A stretch of DNA of 64,000 nt, from positions 1 to 64,000 of the forward strand of contig CACBAM010000009.1 of assembly GCA_902537215.1 (NCBI GenBank), in the 5' to 3' direction. Origin of the DNA: an uncultured Alphaproteobacteria bacterium. GTDB lineage: Bacteria > Pseudomonadota > Alphaproteobacteria > Rhodobacterales > Rhodobacteraceae. This document shows, piece by piece, positions 47,340-57,137 of the stretch (positions are counted from its first letter, which is position 1; each line of letters starts with the position of its first letter). The notes beneath the pieces were generated by a model that worked only from the letters and a program-made list of their open reading frames with translations, had not been told where the DNA came from and did no database searches. The position numbers and the translations under genes are program-made.

Positions 47340-47705
47340 TTAACTAGTCTCGTAAAGCGTATTAACTTCCGTTAAAATCTCCTCATTCCAAATCTTTGTG
47401 TCTAGACCGAATTCAAGACAACTCATTATATATTGAAGGCACTCACTGTGTCTTTCCTCTCTGGTTTTAAATACTACAGAGCTATCTAAATTACAGGAAA
47501 TTTGAACTGTACAGCCGTTAAAAATTATAGTTTGGCCGTCTAAACGAATAAAGTCATTCCAAGTCTTTTCATTTTCTTTGAATAATTTTTTCACATCTCT
47601 CAAAGTGATTTTTTTTGAAATAGATTTATATGATTCGTACATACTCATAGGTAAAAATAGAACAAAAAGTGAACATTTGTAAATGTTTTTTTGATTATCT
47701 TTCAT
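47340..47705 (-). CDS. Hypothetical protein, unrecognised
   Basis: A frame of up to 121 codons. I do not recognise the family. Its middle and C-terminal parts look like a small soluble globular protein with a helix (TLRDVKKLFKENEKTWNDF), two strands (QTIIFNGCTVQISC) and an acidic C-terminal helix, with three cysteines. Two ATGs at codons 20 and 22 (47648, 47642) could be the true start and would remove an unlikely hydrophobic N-terminus. No Shine-Dalgarno match is clear. The call rests on length and composition only. Confidence 0.45.
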   Translation of the reverse strand: MKDNQKNIYKCSLFVLFLPMSMYESYKSISKKITLRDVKKLFKENEKTWNDFIRLDGQTIIFNGCTVQISCNLDSSVVFKTREERHSECLQYIMSCLEFGLDTKIWNEEILTEVNTLYETS

Positions 47706-50937: not shown

Positions 50938-51444
50938 TCAGCTCTGAAACAACCCTACTTTCATATTTTCAGCTGAATATATTTTTTCATTATCTGCATA
51001 CATAGTCCCATTAGCCATTCCAAGCTTTAACTTTCTATCAATAACTCTTGTAAAATTTACTTCATATCTGACAAGTTTTATATCTGGAGTTACCATTCCT
51101 GTAAACTTTACTTCACCAACGCCTAGAGCTCTTCCGCGACCTTTCATTTCTCTCCATCCTAGATTAAATCCGGTTAGTTGCCACAATGCGTCTAAACCCA
51201 GACACCCTGGCATTACAGGGTCTCCTTCAAAATGACATTCAAAAAACCATAATTTTGGATTTATGTCGAACTCTGCTACCACATGTCCTTTATTATGCTC
51301 ACCACCATCATCTGATATCTCTGTTACCCTATCAATCATTAGCATAGGGGGCATTGGAAGTTGAGGGTTGCCTATTCCAAACAGTTTGCCCTTAGCGCAT
51401 GATATTAGATCATCGTAATCAAACTTATTTTTTCTGGATATCAT
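50938..51444 (-). CDS. fabA: 3-hydroxydecanoyl-[ACP] dehydratase/isomerase
   Basis: A 168-residue hot-dog enzyme that dehydrates beta-hydroxydecanoyl-ACP and isomerises the double bond. The active-site histidine is in FFECHFEGDPVMPGCLGLDALWQLTGF; PQLPMPPMLMIDRVTEIS and VKFTGMVTPDIKLV are family blocks. It is the first gene of fabABI, divergent from imuB; their 228-base shared upstream region holds both promoters. Confidence 0.96.
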   Translation of the reverse strand: MISRKNKFDYDDLISCAKGKLFGIGNPQLPMPPMLMIDRVTEISDDGGEHNKGHVVAEFDINPKLWFFECHFEGDPVMPGCLGLDALWQLTGFNLGWREMKGRGRALGVGEVKFTGMVTPDIKLVRYEVNFTRVIDRKLKLGMANGTMYADNEKIYSAENMKVGLFQS

Positions 51445-51609: not shown

Positions 51610-51625
51610 TGTACGCCAAAGTACA
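51610..51625. promoter_or_regulatory. Inverted repeat TGTAC-N6-GTACA upstream of the imuB -35 element
   Basis: TGTACGCCAAAGTACA is a perfect 5+5 inverted repeat with a 6-base centre, lying 3 bases upstream of the predicted imuB -35. It could be an operator for a dimeric regulator acting on imuB or on divergent fabA. It is not the GAAC-N7-GAAC LexA form, so a second regulator would be needed. Confidence 0.4.
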
Positions 51626-51628
51626 AAA

Positions 51629-51657
51629 TTGAGTTGGACTTTTTATTCGTTTACAAT
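51629..51657 (+). promoter_or_regulatory. Predicted imuB-operon promoter
   Basis: TTGAGT (51629-51634) and TACAAT (51652-51657) are separated by exactly 17 bases; the -10 matches the consensus at 5 of 6 positions and the -35 at 4 of 6. The expected start of transcription, near 51664, is only about 9 bases before the imuB ATG, so the message would be nearly leaderless, in line with the absence of a Shine-Dalgarno sequence. Confidence 0.6.
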
Positions 51658-51663
51658 TAAAAA

Positions 51664-51678
51664 GAACAAATAATGAAC
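51664..51678 (+). promoter_or_regulatory. LexA (SOS) operator GAAC-N7-GAAC over the imuB start
   Basis: GAACAAATAATGAAC is an exact match to the direct-repeat GTTC-N7-GTTC/GAAC-N7-GAAC LexA box known from alphaproteobacteria. It covers the predicted transcription start and contains the imuB ATG (51673-51675) in its spacer, so bound LexA would block initiation. This supports DNA-damage control of imuB, the methyltransferase and dnaE2 together. Confidence 0.7.
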
Positions 51679-53361
51679 AAAATAAAATTAAAAAATAGAT
51701 TCGCCTCCATTTGGTTTCCACGATTACCATTAGAAATAATATTAACTAAGGAACCCCTGTTAGATTCATTACCTCTAGTTATTTCTTTTTCTGGAAGGGA
51801 GGAAATAATATGTGCGAATGGACTAGCTAAAAAGCTAAATATATCCACCGGAATGTCTACTAAGGAAACTCTGACATTAAATCCTCATGTGATTAGTAAA
51901 ACAGTTCAGCATTCGGATCTTAAAAAAAAACTAATTAAACTTTTTAGTTTCACATATCAATTCACACCTCTTATAAGATTAGATGGCTATGATAGCTTGA
52001 TGCTTGATATAACAGGATGCGAGAAATTCACGGGGAAAGAGGAAGACTTTATACATCAACTAACAACTCATTTTTCTAAAATTAATATACTCAGCATTAT
52101 AGGGATTGCTGGAACTCAGGGAGCTGCTTGGGCAATAGCAAGATTCCGAAATAGTTCGAATCGAAAACAACCAAGGGCAGATCTTAGAAAAATAATCAAT
52201 GATCAAAGTAGAGCTACAAGAATTAAAATTCCCAGCGATAGAGATACCGAGAATTCACAAAAGAAATTGTCTATCTTTAATACAGGCTATTCTGTTAATG
52301 ACCCTGTGCATAGGTCTAGAATAATTGATAATGATAAAACAGAAAAAGCTCTTATTTCCTTACCAGTGGAAGCATTGAATATAGAAAGTACCGATGTAAA
52401 TCTATTAAATTTATTTGGTATCTACAAAGTTGGAGATCTAATGAACATAGATTCGACTTCTATTAATAGAAGATTTGGCAATCATATAACCAAAAGAGTA
52501 CGGCAAGTTTTGGGCAAAGAAACAGAATTATTCAATAAAATTGTCTTAGAAGAAAAATATTCCTTTTCAACAGAACTGTTCTTAGAAGAAATAACCCTTA
52601 AGGGTATAAGTGAATTCATTAAAATTCTTATTAAGAAACTATGTGATAAGCTCGAAAAAAATAAGAAGCTAGTTAGAAGATGTAATATTAAATTTCCACC
52701 AGACGACAAAATACTTATAGAAATAAACTTCAGCAGCCCCACACAAGACAAAGCCAAAATAGAGCTGGTAATGCTAGAAAAACTCAAGACTATTAAAAAT
52801 CTCAAAAATATAGAAGCAATAATACTCGAGGGAGTACATATTGAAGAAGCAAGAGAAAGACAAATAGCTATAAGTGTCCCTGGTGGAGATTACACTTGTA
52901 AATATCTAGATAAGGAAGAAAAAATAAGTTTATTGATGGCCAGAATTGAAGCTAGATTAGGGAAAAATAAGGTAAAATCCTTCGCACAACACCATAGTCA
53001 CATACCAGAGAAAACCTTTTCTTTAGGAGAATTTAAAACAAAAAGAAAAACAAGTAATCAATGGAAGAAAAGTAAATTTATAAGACCAATACTTTTATAT
53101 TCACCAGATCTCATTAATGCTACTTTGTATAGAGATGAGCATCTGAATCAATTTAGTTGGAGAGGAAAAAAGTATAAAACCTTCTATGTACGTGGGCCTG
53201 AAAGGATAGCGTCTGAATGGTGGAACAAGGATAAAGGAACAAATTTTGGATTACGCGACTATTGGGAAGTGACAACAACGTGTGGTGCAAGGTTGTGGAT
53301 GTTTGAAGAAAAGAATAAGGTTTCAGAAAATAGATGGTTTGTACATGGTAATTTTTGTTAG
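51673..53361 (+). CDS. imuB: ImuB, catalytically inactive Y-family polymerase-like protein
   Basis: A 562-residue hub protein of the SOS mutasome that links DnaE2 to the sliding clamp. The N-terminal RFASIWFPRLPLEIIL replaces the catalytic acidic strand of true Y-family polymerases, as usual for ImuB; LMLDITGCEKFTGKEEDF (the D-I-T-G-C pattern), GIAGTQGAAWAIARF and the C-terminal GPERIASEWWNKD...YWEVTTTCGARLWMFEE...WFVHGNF block are diagnostic. imuA is not upstream; fabA is. No Shine-Dalgarno is visible. It is followed 21 bases later by a methyltransferase gene. Confidence 0.92.
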   Translation: MNKIKLKNRFASIWFPRLPLEIILTKEPLLDSLPLVISFSGREEIICANGLAKKLNISTGMSTKETLTLNPHVISKTVQHSDLKKKLIKLFSFTYQFTPLIRLDGYDSLMLDITGCEKFTGKEEDFIHQLTTHFSKINILSIIGIAGTQGAAWAIARFRNSSNRKQPRADLRKIINDQSRATRIKIPSDRDTENSQKKLSIFNTGYSVNDPVHRSRIIDNDKTEKALISLPVEALNIESTDVNLLNLFGIYKVGDLMNIDSTSINRRFGNHITKRVRQVLGKETELFNKIVLEEKYSFSTELFLEEITLKGISEFIKILIKKLCDKLEKNKKLVRRCNIKFPPDDKILIEINFSSPTQDKAKIELVMLEKLKTIKNLKNIEAIILEGVHIEEARERQIAISVPGGDYTCKYLDKEEKISLLMARIEARLGKNKVKSFAQHHSHIPEKTFSLGEFKTKRKTSNQWKKSKFIRPILLYSPDLINATLYRDEHLNQFSWRGKKYKTFYVRGPERIASEWWNKDKGTNFGLRDYWEVTTTCGARLWMFEEKNKVSENRWFVHGNFC

Positions 53362-53382
53362 TAGTTTAGGCTGTGAATAAGG

Positions 53383-54264
53383 ATGCAATTTCAAAAAAAT
53401 AACGCATTAGATACTAAAGCTCTTGGGCTTGAGGTTTCTTTAGCGGTAGCAAAATTTGTTACTGGGAAAGAGAACATGCACTATGGCGTTTGGGACAACC
53501 TAGATCCTTGTCTTGAGAATTTGGGTAAGGCTCAAGAACAGTATACAAAACTACTGTTCAAATATTTTCCAAAAAAGAAAAAGCTGAAGATCCTTGATAT
53601 TGGTGGAGGTGCTGGAGAAATAGCAAAGAAGTTAATATGCTTGGGCCATAACGTCACTGTTATTGTACCTAGCGATATACTAAGCAAACGATGTTTAGAA
53701 AACACGAACAACAAAGCCAAAGTTCATAATATAAAGTTTGAAGATTATGAACCCAAAAAAAATCAGACATTTGACTTGTGTCTATTTTCAGAAAGCTTTC
53801 AATATATTCCCGCAAAAATTGCATTAAAAAAAGCTAAAGGATTACTAAGCAAAGGCGGGCAAATATTAGTTGCGGATTGCTTCCGCTCTGAGGTCAAGCA
53901 TACCAGTCACAACAGAAGACCAGGAGGAGGACATCCTTTATCAGAAATGCTAAAACTAATTAAAGATATAGATTTAAATATTATATCAAAAAAAGAGATA
54001 ACAAAATCTGTTGCTCCATCTTTAGACATAGAGCAAAAATTTTATAATGTAGTTGGCGTTGGAATAGACAAAGTACAGCAAGGCTTAGTAGCAAGCCATC
54101 CTTGGAAGATGAAACTATTTAATCTGGCCTATAAGACTATAGTAAGTCAGAAAAAGCGCAGACGTTTACACGATAGAATTTACGGAAACATAAGAAATTC
54201 TGACAATTTTATTAAATTCAATCACTATATGATCTTTCAACTGTCTTCTAATAAGGCAGGTTGA
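53383..54264 (+). CDS. Class I SAM-dependent methyltransferase inside the imuB-dnaE2 cassette
   Basis: A 293-residue protein. An N-terminal helical part contains MHYGVWDN (32-39) and LGKAQEQYTKLLF, seen in small-molecule or lipid methyltransferases. SAM motif I is ILDIGGGAGE (70-79), followed by VTVIVPSD, a FDLCLFSESFQYI strand and LLSKGGQILVADCFRSE. A basic C-terminal tail (SQKKRRRLHDR) follows. It sits between imuB (21-base gap) and dnaE2 (26-base gap) on the same strand, so it should share the SOS promoter. The substrate is unknown; DNA, nucleotide, lipid or a quinone-like compound cannot be separated from sequence. Confidence 0.82.
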   Translation: MQFQKNNALDTKALGLEVSLAVAKFVTGKENMHYGVWDNLDPCLENLGKAQEQYTKLLFKYFPKKKKLKILDIGGGAGEIAKKLICLGHNVTVIVPSDILSKRCLENTNNKAKVHNIKFEDYEPKKNQTFDLCLFSESFQYIPAKIALKKAKGLLSKGGQILVADCFRSEVKHTSHNRRPGGGHPLSEMLKLIKDIDLNIISKKEITKSVAPSLDIEQKFYNVVGVGIDKVQQGLVASHPWKMKLFNLAYKTIVSQKKRRRLHDRIYGNIRNSDNFIKFNHYMIFQLSSNKAG

Positions 54265-54290
54265 ATAGCTTAATAAGATAGAGCTTTTAG

Positions 54291-57137
54291 TTGTCGTATT
54301 CAGAGCTTTGCATAACATCTAATTTCAGCTTCCTAGAAGGAGCCAGCCATCCTGAAGAGTATGTGGAAAGAGCAATAGAATTTGGATTAAAATCTATAGC
54401 AATTGCCGACAAAAACTCCATTTCTGGAATAGTGAGAGGGCTTAGGGCTATAAAGGAAATCGAATATGATACTAAAAGTAAACGCTCTCCTCTAAAGCTA
54501 ATACCAGGGGTTACTATCGTCACAACTCATAGAACTGAAATAACATGCTTAGCTCAGACACGACAAGGATGGAAAAACATATGTAAAGTTTTAACTACTG
54601 GAAAGGAGAATTCGAAGAAGGGTTATTGCCATATTGACTATGAAAGTATTCTCAAAAACCAAGATGGCATTATATTCTTAGCCCATATTTCAGAAAAAAA
54701 TCATAGCCTTTCAAAGAGACTTGAGTGGTTGAGATTTATCCAAACACTCAAGAGAAATAATAGTAAATCTATATACATAGTTATGGCGCCCAGATATGAC
54801 GGTTTGGATGAAATACGTTTTTACAAAATCAATAGGTTTGCAAAAAACGCTAAGTGTGGAATTATAGGGTCTTCTACTCCTCTAATGCATCACGGCTCCA
54901 GACGAAAAGTCAGAGATACTTTATATGCAATAAAAATGAAATGCACCATAGATGACCTGGGGGTTGAATCAAGCATTAATGGAGAGCAAAGAATGCGATC
55001 ACCCCATGATTTTATAAGTATATTCAAAGATTATCCTGAAGCGATAGACAACACTAACTTTATAAGCGATAGATGTTCGTTTTCTTTAGACGAACTCAGC
55101 TATACATACCCTAAAGAAGTGCTCAAAGGAGAGAACCCCGATACAATATTACATGAGCTAACCTTTAATGGATTAAATGAATATTATACAAAAAATATTC
55201 CTGTGAAAATATTGAAGGGAGTAAAAAAGGAACTTCTGTTAATAAAAAAACTCAAATACGCTCCCTATTTTCTCACAGTGTATGACATAGTGAAATTTGC
55301 AAGAAGTAGAGGTATTTTGTGTCAAGGCCGTGGCTCTGCTGCTAATTCCATAGTTTGTTTTTCTTTGGGAGTAACGTCCGTTAGCCCAGAGATTGGGTCT
55401 ATGGTATTCGAGCGCTTTATATCAGAGGCAAGAAACGAACCCCCTGACATTGATATTGATTTTGAGCATGAACGCAGACAGGAGATAATAGACGAAATAT
55501 ACAGGAAATATGGCGATGGAAGAGCTGCCTTATGCGCTACAGTCATCCACTACAGAGCGAAAGGAGCGATAAGAGATGTCGGCAAAGTAATGGGGTTAAG
55601 CAAAGAAATAATATCCTCGATGGCTGAAAATATTGTTGGATGGGATAGACATAAGGTACCTCATTACAATAATACCAACTTAGAAGGTAAGAATGACCAT
55701 ACTAGAATATTGGAGACTTTGGCCCTCAGCGACCAATTGATAGGCTTTCCTAGACACTTAGGTCAGCATGTAGGTGGCTTTATAATTACTGAGGATTATT
55801 TGGATGAGATTACATCTATTGAAAATACTGCTATGGAAGGAAGAAGTATAATAGCATGGGATAAAGACGACATAGACTTTTTAGGTATACTAAAGATAGA
55901 TATCTTAGCTCTTGGGATGCTGACATGTATAAAGAAATCTTTTGATTTAATAAAAAACCATCATAACCGGAAAGTTAGCCTAAACAATATTCCACATCGA
56001 GATACACGCGTCTTTAATATGCTTTCCAAAGCAGACACTGTAGGGGTTTTTCAGGTTGAAAGCAGAGCCCAAATGAACTTCCTTCCAAGATTAAAACCAC
56101 AATGCTTTTATGATCTGGTAATACAAGTTGCCATCGTCAGACCTGGGCCAATTCAAGGGGATATGGTTCATCCCTATATAAAAAGAAGAAATGGACAAGA
56201 AAAAGTTACTTTTCCTTCCGAAAAACTAAAAGAAATCCTTGGTAAGACTCTTGGCGTGCCACTATTTCAAGAACAAGCAATACAAATTGCAATGAAAGGT
56301 GCGGGATTTTCACTGAAAGATACTGATAGACTAAGAAAATCATTAGCAACGTTTAAGAGAAACGGTACTGTAAGTAAGTTTAAAAAAAGATTTATTGATG
56401 GTATGCAAAAAAATGGATATGACAAGGATTTTGCTACAAAGTGCTTTTCTCAGATATCGGGGTTTGGTGAATACGGATTTCCTGAAAGTCATGCTGCAAG
56501 CTTCGCTATTCTTGTATATGCGTCGGCTTGGATAAAATATCATTATCCTGATGTTTTTGCCTGTGCTTTACTAAACTCTCAACCGATGGGATTCTACTCT
56601 GCTTCTCAAATAATACGTGATGCAAAAAATCACGGGGTAAAAGTTAAAGAAATATGCATAAACAAAAGCGAATGGAACCATTCTCTAGAAAATCACGGCG
56701 AACCTTGTTTTAGTTTACGACTGGGGTTCAGGCAGATCAAAGGACTTTCAAAAAATGACGTCGATATAATTATTAAAGAGAGAGGCAATGGTTATAATGA
56801 TCCCCAAGATTTATGGCATCGTATTAGACTGAGCCCAAGTATTATAAAGCTCCTGATTAAAGCAAATTGCTTTCACTCTTTTAATAAAAACAGAAGACTA
56901 TTACTTTGGGATGCTCAAGCTATAAAAAAAACAAATTCTTTAGCCCTTTTTGAAGATTATTCTGAGAAGGAATACTTACCAGAGAAAAGCGTCAATCTTC
57001 CTAATATGACTTTAGGTGAAGAATTGATTTTAGATTATCAATCTCTACGGTTAAGTCTATCTACACACCCCGTAAAACTACTAAGACCCTTTCTTAACGA
57101 GAGCTTCATAGAAGAGTATTGTAGCCGTAGTATCTAA
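54291..57137 (+). CDS. dnaE2: Error-prone DNA polymerase III alpha subunit DnaE2, C-terminally short
   Basis: A 948-residue C-family polymerase for translesion synthesis. It starts YSELCITSNFSFLEGASHPEEYV (PHP domain), has the catalytic PPDIDIDFEHERR with D388 and D390, a third acidic residue at D537 in LKIDILALGM, then the fingers and the tandem HhH region (FRQIKGLSKNDVD). Relatives are around 1050-1100 residues and continue past the STHPVKLLRPFL motif with an OB-fold; here the frame stops about 20 residues after it. No remnant of the OB part is seen downstream. The start is TTG with GAG 11 bases upstream. Confidence 0.92.
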   Translation: MSYSELCITSNFSFLEGASHPEEYVERAIEFGLKSIAIADKNSISGIVRGLRAIKEIEYDTKSKRSPLKLIPGVTIVTTHRTEITCLAQTRQGWKNICKVLTTGKENSKKGYCHIDYESILKNQDGIIFLAHISEKNHSLSKRLEWLRFIQTLKRNNSKSIYIVMAPRYDGLDEIRFYKINRFAKNAKCGIIGSSTPLMHHGSRRKVRDTLYAIKMKCTIDDLGVESSINGEQRMRSPHDFISIFKDYPEAIDNTNFISDRCSFSLDELSYTYPKEVLKGENPDTILHELTFNGLNEYYTKNIPVKILKGVKKELLLIKKLKYAPYFLTVYDIVKFARSRGILCQGRGSAANSIVCFSLGVTSVSPEIGSMVFERFISEARNEPPDIDIDFEHERRQEIIDEIYRKYGDGRAALCATVIHYRAKGAIRDVGKVMGLSKEIISSMAENIVGWDRHKVPHYNNTNLEGKNDHTRILETLALSDQLIGFPRHLGQHVGGFIITEDYLDEITSIENTAMEGRSIIAWDKDDIDFLGILKIDILALGMLTCIKKSFDLIKNHHNRKVSLNNIPHRDTRVFNMLSKADTVGVFQVESRAQMNFLPRLKPQCFYDLVIQVAIVRPGPIQGDMVHPYIKRRNGQEKVTFPSEKLKEILGKTLGVPLFQEQAIQIAMKGAGFSLKDTDRLRKSLATFKRNGTVSKFKKRFIDGMQKNGYDKDFATKCFSQISGFGEYGFPESHAASFAILVYASAWIKYHYPDVFACALLNSQPMGFYSASQIIRDAKNHGVKVKEICINKSEWNHSLENHGEPCFSLRLGFRQIKGLSKNDVDIIIKERGNGYNDPQDLWHRIRLSPSIIKLLIKANCFHSFNKNRRLLLWDAQAIKKTNSLALFEDYSEKEYLPEKSVNLPNMTLGEELILDYQSLRLSLSTHPVKLLRPFLNESFIEEYCSRSI

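Follow-up and report, generated by a model that had tools for sequence, protein, structure and literature searches.

We analysed a window of 64,000 nucleotides (positions 1 to 64,000 of contig CACBAM010000009.1, assembly GCA_902537215.1) from an uncultured member of the Rhodobacteraceae. It carries an SOS mutagenesis cassette in which a methyltransferase gene lies between imuB, for a Y-family polymerase homolog, and dnaE2, for an error-prone DNA polymerase. The window has a G+C content of 36.5%, and the genome assembly is 2.1 Mb. All three genes are on the + strand, with gaps of 21 bases between imuB and the methyltransferase and 26 bases between the methyltransferase and dnaE2. An earlier sequence-only reading had described this run, with fabA divergent from it and no imuA within it, and the open reading frames (ORFs) are as described there. 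The features are listed below in window coordinates, except for the last two, which lie on a different contig of the same genome (G000).

51673-53361, + strand: imuB, ORF of 562 residues with a Pfam IMS match; apparently a catalytically dead Y-family protein.
53383-54264, + strand: methyltransferase, ORF of 293 residues; class I S-adenosylmethionine (SAM) enzyme with a fold of the small-molecule/lipid type, conserved in the genus.
54291-57137, + strand: dnaE2 core, 948 residues with a TTG start; retains the PDID and KID motifs but ends without the OB domain and SRDFH tail.
51664-51678, + strand: LexA box GAAC-N7-GAAC (= GTTC-N7-GTTC) of the alphaproteobacterial type, overlapping the imuB start codon.
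51629-51657, + strand: sigma-70-like promoter TTGAGT-17-TACAAT upstream of imuB, with 9 of 12 matches in a consensus scan.
50938-51444: fabA, divergent from imuB.
G000:C5:20612-21244: imuA homolog, 210 residues, E 1.1e-21, on another contig than the trio, with a perfect LexA box.
G000:C5:143154-143489 (L382 1163-1498): stand-alone OB gene (P0001), 111 residues, with a LexA box next to the start codon.

DnaE2 scores 1124.6 bits against the PRK05672 profile, "error-prone DNA polymerase" (cut-off 939), and the match stops at profile position 940 of 1047. The chain terminates after the HPxxLLR segment, and the C-terminal OB domain and SRDFH tail are missing. The protein is a C-family polymerase of the DnaE2 type with its catalytic aspartates in place (PDID and KID). 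An OB domain within the chain is usual in DnaE2, although not required; here it is encoded separately. The shortness had been noticed in the sequence-only reading, where its meaning as the loss of an OB domain that a separate LexA-box gene encodes was overlooked. An OB domain hidden behind a frameshift was considered and rejected: the next gene, on the opposite strand, ends 6 bases beyond dnaE2, and no OB domain was found elsewhere in the window (best E 0.15). A set of 119 DnaE2 rows, some of them near-copies, contains 29 that terminate in R[DN]FH (1044-1122 residues) and 90 that do not (927-1060 residues). A quick tree (LG+G4, midpoint root) places the OB-less cores in one clade (58/58, against 28 fused DnaE2; SH-aLRT 100). 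A decaying gene that had lost its end would also lack the C-terminal tenth of the protein. However, the ratio of nonsynonymous to synonymous substitution rates (dN/dS) of dnaE2 is 0.08-0.15 against seven members of the genus, the catalytic motifs are retained, and OB-less ends occur throughout a clade, which makes decay extremely improbable.

The stand-alone OB gene was found by scanning the LexA boxes of the same genome. Its product matches the Pfam OB-fold (E 1.5e-10) and is 29-44% identical to 13 fused DnaE2 OB domains. Of its 30 best plasmid matches, 23 are annotated as error-prone DNA polymerase and two as DNA polymerase III alpha, and five are unannotated. A sequence comparison with solved structures gave no match at E 0.1. 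A ferredoxin-like gene (named by eye) lies next to it in divergent orientation. Co-occurrence was assessed in 100 Rhodobacteraceae genera, one genome each, with a joint OB profile set against a dnaE2 search of the same genomes; the draws from the family display more than 160 genera. A stand-alone OB gene is present in 34 of the 36 genera with a complete OB-less dnaE2 and in none of the 49 with fused genes only. Genomes with a broken dnaE2 (G230, G260) were set aside. G171, with an OB piece at a contig start and a dnaE2 match that runs out at that contig's end, was counted as fused, as were the fragments of G240 and G257. G197 has both types and was counted as OB-less. G245 was also counted, since inspection of its dnaE2 end showed no OB domain; the OB gene of G245 combines a long leader with a perfect box. 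Two genera, G183 and G253, gave OB matches but no strong match to dnaE2; the OB match of G253 is a fused end. The C-termini of OB-less dnaE2 were read in all 36 genera counted, including G210, G175, G197, G226, and G245.

The LexA box was read at 37 stand-alone OB genes, excluding L452 (a fused end) and L456 (a contig edge); it is perfect at 35, has one mismatch at one, and is absent from one. In each of the three trio genera of the draw (G000, G195, G252), both the OB gene and the unlinked imuA carry a perfect box. Of 36 aligned stand-alone OB proteins, 28 have a leader containing a PRPP motif close to the N-terminus. The OB protein might instead be an independent SOS single-strand-binding protein, with OB-less DnaE2 working without an OB domain. 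Three genera are consistent with such independence: no OB gene was found in G206 and G226, which have an OB-less dnaE2, and in G213, a genome listed as 100% complete, ImuA, ImuB, and the OB gene are all encoded but no dnaE2 match rises above the level of DnaE1. DnaE3 and several DnaE2 without an OB domain have also been recorded (PMC3919608). Nevertheless, the resemblance to DnaE2 OB domains and the near-exclusive distribution argue against an independent protein, which we consider improbable. In G213 (L423, L455), the imuB is of the OB-less lineage and the OB gene bears a LexA box.

ImuB matches Pfam IMS at residues 21-155 of 562, and its match to a Pol IV structure profile extends up to profile residue 424. 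The first catalytic motif of Y-family polymerases carries an Asp. In ImuB this Asp is absent, and the SIDE motif of Pol IV is replaced by YDS. ImuB thus appears to be a catalytically inactive Y-family protein with a C-terminal extension. Imu cassettes usually, but not necessarily, have the contiguous order imuA-imuB-dnaE2; here imuA is unlinked and the methyltransferase is inserted. The sequence-only reading had proposed from the missing imuA that ImuB and DnaE2 would work without ImuA. This was not supported: when the rest of the genome was searched, the linked-ImuA profile (A2) gave a single match, the homolog on contig C5, which is preceded at a distance of 37 bases by a perfect LexA box. 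The gene lies between cytochrome-c-like and hydantoinase-like genes (named by eye). The protein by itself has no Pfam or NCBIfam match, and the ImuA profile barely reaches RecA (E 0.024); a RecA-like ImuA is nonetheless encoded in the genome, unlinked to the cassette. In the OB-less genera for which unlinked imuA was fetched, our genome included, all 20 have a perfect LexA box at the gene. A mutasome functioning without ImuA, for which the cassette itself would speak, was therefore rejected on finding the unlinked imuA and is very unlikely.

The LexA box at imuB is perfect and is kept in 12/12 loci of the genus despite variable spacer bases. The same type of box lies upstream of recA, lexA, and imuA in the same genome. 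A stricter pattern, GAACAWANNNNGAAC, has eight matches in the 2.1 Mb genome, against three for the reversed control. These matches include the promoters of recA and lexA (NCBIfam-named), imuA, imuB, and the OB gene, and the presence of recA and lexA among them supports the LexA motif. The predicted operators upstream of imuB, imuA, and the OB genes are all perfect boxes. Across the OB-less lineage, imuB has a perfect box in 13/15 loci; in L173, one of the two misses, the start was misplaced and the box was seen on rescan (as L314). OB-less dnaE2 genes have a box within one mismatch in 37/39 cases, perfect in 15. Within the genus, neither the methyltransferase nor dnaE2 is preceded by a perfect box in any of 12 loci, or by a one-mismatch box in the five loci scanned for one. 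Because the genus has no such box, the methyltransferase and dnaE2 are likely to be co-induced with imuB. The co-induction proposed in the sequence-only reading is in this respect likely, with one LexA box at imuB and none inside the run. Just upstream of the box at imuB, the TTGAGT of the sigma-70-like promoter is invariant in 12/12 genus sequences and the TACAAT is variable; such sites are rarer in the window (13) than in shuffled sequences (mean 23.5), and the promoter call is weak alone. An E. coli-type box near 51614-51629 (CTGT-N8-ACAA, by eye) was rejected, as it is not kept across the genus.

The trio is not an accident of one strain. Among 21 further genomes of the genus (one 90% complete, the others 58-88%), 16 repeat the order imuB, methyltransferase, dnaE2, either whole or broken by contig ends. 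In one of these 16 (G009), the trio is spread over two contigs. A 17th, divergent genome (G021) has the methyltransferase and dnaE2 pieces rearranged at a contig end. There, near 17907 of L190 (G021:C30), the methyltransferase end and dnaE2 are inverted and the dnaE2 match contains two TAA codons, an arrangement that is probably an assembly fault. In the remaining four (G002, G004, G008, G020; 62-76% complete), we found no close methyltransferase and no dnaE2 match at E 1e-150. All 11 genus loci that were fetched have the same flanks, fabB-fabA on one side (fabB being broken by a contig end in one locus) and a 114-residue gene and acs on the other. The sequence-only reading had held that an imuA elsewhere and a methyltransferase in only one strain, or with a separate promoter, would make the arrangement a local accident. 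The imuA was found elsewhere; the methyltransferase is present in more than one strain, and a separate promoter for it has no support here.

The methyltransferase itself is under purifying selection, given its low dN/dS of 0.06-0.21 against seven genus members, near that of dnaE2 and below that of imuB in six of the seven. The ORF matches generic SAM-methyltransferase models, and its predicted structure (mean predicted local distance difference test score, pLDDT, 93.6) has a class I fold with the SAM motif LDIGGGAG. The structure matches isoprenoid C-methyltransferases, MitM, AtmM, RebM, and cyclopropane synthases, with Z up to 23.6. The 15 best rows align 216-252 residues (Z 22.1-23.6), with 12-20% identity in the rows shown. 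Such a match names a fold, not a substrate, and neighboring genes such as rppH give no indication of the substrate either; the predicted class is that of small-molecule/lipid methyltransferases. DNA methyltransferases carry a motif IV of the form [DNS]PP[YFW]. A DNA methylase was rejected, as the protein has no motif IV and its fold is closest to small-molecule and lipid enzymes.

With a cut-off of E 1e-20, orthologs of METHYLTRANSFERASE, the methyltransferase, were recovered from 16 of the 100 genera, and one of these orthologs is distant. Three genera carry it without imuB and dnaE2 (G024, G221, G222) and others have it with fused DnaE2 only. As an obligate mutasome partner it was rejected, since genera carry it without dnaE2. 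The 80 named methyltransferase loci are the best 80 of 231, and the following linkage rates are rates for these loci, not for the family. The gene rppH (NCBIfam) is coded upstream of the methyltransferase in 49/75 non-trio loci, that is, in 12/13 pairs of methyltransferase and dnaE2 and in 37/62 other loci. The 13 pairs lack imuB and have an OB-less dnaE2 downstream on the same strand, 10 within 131 bases and three at 410-1480. Nine trio loci lie outside the genus, likewise with the methyltransferase upstream of an OB-less dnaE2 on the same strand (L315 is broken before dnaE2 and L332 before imuB). A one-mismatch LexA box precedes dnaE2 in 13/13 pairs, and none of the 13 has a perfect box before the methyltransferase; only 1 of 50 methyltransferase upstream regions, trio loci included, has one. 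Five of the trio loci outside the genus have perfect boxes both before imuB and before dnaE2. In L317 the box in front of dnaE2 has one mismatch, and L324 and L332 resemble the window genus in having no box there. The trio methyltransferases form one clade (14/14 rows, SH-aLRT 100) in a tree from whose labels we left out near-copies of the window genus, as well as five loci whose linkage is unclear (L325, L338, L349, L369, L370). The G+C content of trio loci is 35-37%, against 43-71% for 56 other methyltransferase loci. In L325, a Vannielia metagenome-assembled genome, the methyltransferase and the OB-less dnaE2 are adjacent but convergent, the sole such case among the loci read.

The methyltransferase could be a working SOS effector that modifies a metabolite, lipid, or protein and is kept beside dnaE2 for that reason. 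Its repeated position upstream of OB-less dnaE2, in pairs and trios alike, and its purifying selection are in keeping with such a role, and among the seven genera of the family draw in which it occurs together with an OB-less dnaE2, it adjoins dnaE2 in six. The effector role is nonetheless unlikely. The gene also occurs without imuB and dnaE2 and in genera with fused DnaE2 only. In ten genomes with OB-less DnaE2 and a methyltransferase, the two are adjacent in G319 only. Methyltransferases almost never have a LexA box of their own, while dnaE2 bears its own box in the pairs and in five other trios. A passenger with an unrelated small-molecule or lipid function is most likely.

Taken together, the cassette very probably represents the SOS-induced core of a split ImuA-ImuB-DnaE2 mutasome with a captured passenger methyltransferase. 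In one lineage of the Rhodobacteraceae, DnaE2 would have split into a catalytic core (PHP, polymerase, and helix-hairpin-helix) and a separate OB protein, in the simplest case through a single ancestral event. The imuA-imuB-dnaE2 cassette appears to have dispersed, its pieces bearing LexA boxes of their own in sequence. Upon DNA damage, RecA would trigger LexA self-cleavage, and joint expression of the pieces would follow. A translesion polymerase may then form in trans from ImuA, ImuB, the DnaE2 core, and the OB protein, with the last providing the DNA contact that the fused domain gives elsewhere. Judging from its relatives, the methyltransferase was probably an old neighbor between rppH and a LexA-controlled dnaE2, itself outside LexA control. 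In the A+T-rich clade, imuB and its LexA box would have come upstream, and the box of dnaE2 would then have been lost in the window genus. The simplest history thus has the neighbor first, imuB next, and the loss of the inner box last. Since the inner box is absent from the genus, SOS transcription from imuB should traverse the methyltransferase, and one LexA-controlled transcript may now span all three genes. The methyltransferase would be a co-transcribed passenger under selection, not a part of the mutasome. More tentatively, the DnaE2 of the whole lineage could be a two-chain polymerase in which the OB protein is a dissociable, separately LexA-controlled switch for activity or targeting, docking in most genera through the WPRPP leader; we regard this extension as plausible but not as the expected outcome.

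Several observations weigh against this interpretation. The Fisher value for the co-occurrence (2e-21, computed for 33/35 before G245 was added) overstates independence, because the pattern is essentially one split followed by retention. The genera G206, G226, and G213 depart from it as described above, and the window genus has no WPRPP leader, which most stand-alone OB proteins carry. The DnaE2 tree carries warnings of long branches meeting and of odd composition of A+T-rich rows, and the methyltransferase tree carries a composition warning. Two of the 39 OB-less dnaE2 genes have no near box, one of them in a trio (L201). Many of the other boxes before OB-less dnaE2 have one mismatch, which shuffled sequences reach in 10-17% of regions; we credit these boxes because their sequence and position recur before dnaE2. 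A one-mismatch site also lies upstream of 5/13 pair methyltransferases. Unlinked ImuA from our genome and 19 other OB-less genera matches the linked ImuA profile with an hhalign probability of 99.9, in a comparison that is partly circular, one profile having recovered members of the other. Finally, imuA and OB genes were sought in one genome of the genus only.

The system resembles the known ImuA-ImuB-DnaE2 mutasome in its dead Y-family ImuB, RecA-like ImuA, DnaE2 with catalytic motifs, and LexA boxes. It differs in that the polymerase consists of a core and a separate OB gene, imuA is unlinked, and a methyltransferase lies within the imuB-dnaE2 run. Split cassettes are on record, e.g., imuA'-imuB and dnaE2 of mycobacteria (PMC6511836, PMC3919608). 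In DnaE2B/DnaE2X systems, imuA is missing from the genome, and PolY, ImuB-C, and RecA are used (PMC6511836, PMC12926913). Modularity is a shared trait, down to what their authors term a split ImuB (PMC6511836, PMC12926913), whereas our genome encodes ImuA and a typical ImuB and has its split in the polymerase. The OB-less DnaE2 and DnaE3 in the available portion of PMC3919608, among them several DnaE2, likewise stop before the OB domain, but no separate OB gene is mentioned in that portion. The paper also links DnaE2 to large, G+C-rich genomes, in contrast to the 2.1 Mb assembly and A+T-rich window here. The methyltransferase shares its fold with the enzymes named above at only 12-20% identity. 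Among the matches listed in a partial literature collection, there was no report of a stand-alone DnaE2 OB gene or of a methyltransferase in an imuB-dnaE2 operon. The arrangement explains why ImuA and a part of the polymerase can seem to be missing in this lineage, and it suggests a stepwise route by which a neighboring gene is captured into an SOS operon. The lineage includes cultured members, and its division of the polymerase into a core and an OB subunit makes the role of the OB domain in DnaE2 testable. The isolates behind the loci nearest to the window are probably marine, judging from isolate names of this kind.

A second perfect LexA box, GAACAAAAAGTGAAC, lies at 47660-47674 of the window, just upstream of a possible start of the ORF 47340-47648 on the - strand. 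For the 102-residue product, Pfam gave nothing above its cut-off (best E 0.067) and PHROG nothing at 0.01. Of the genus loci that extend that far, 9/9 retain a perfect box at about 4.01 kb from imuB. The ORF 47340-47648 is possibly an unrecognized SOS gene.

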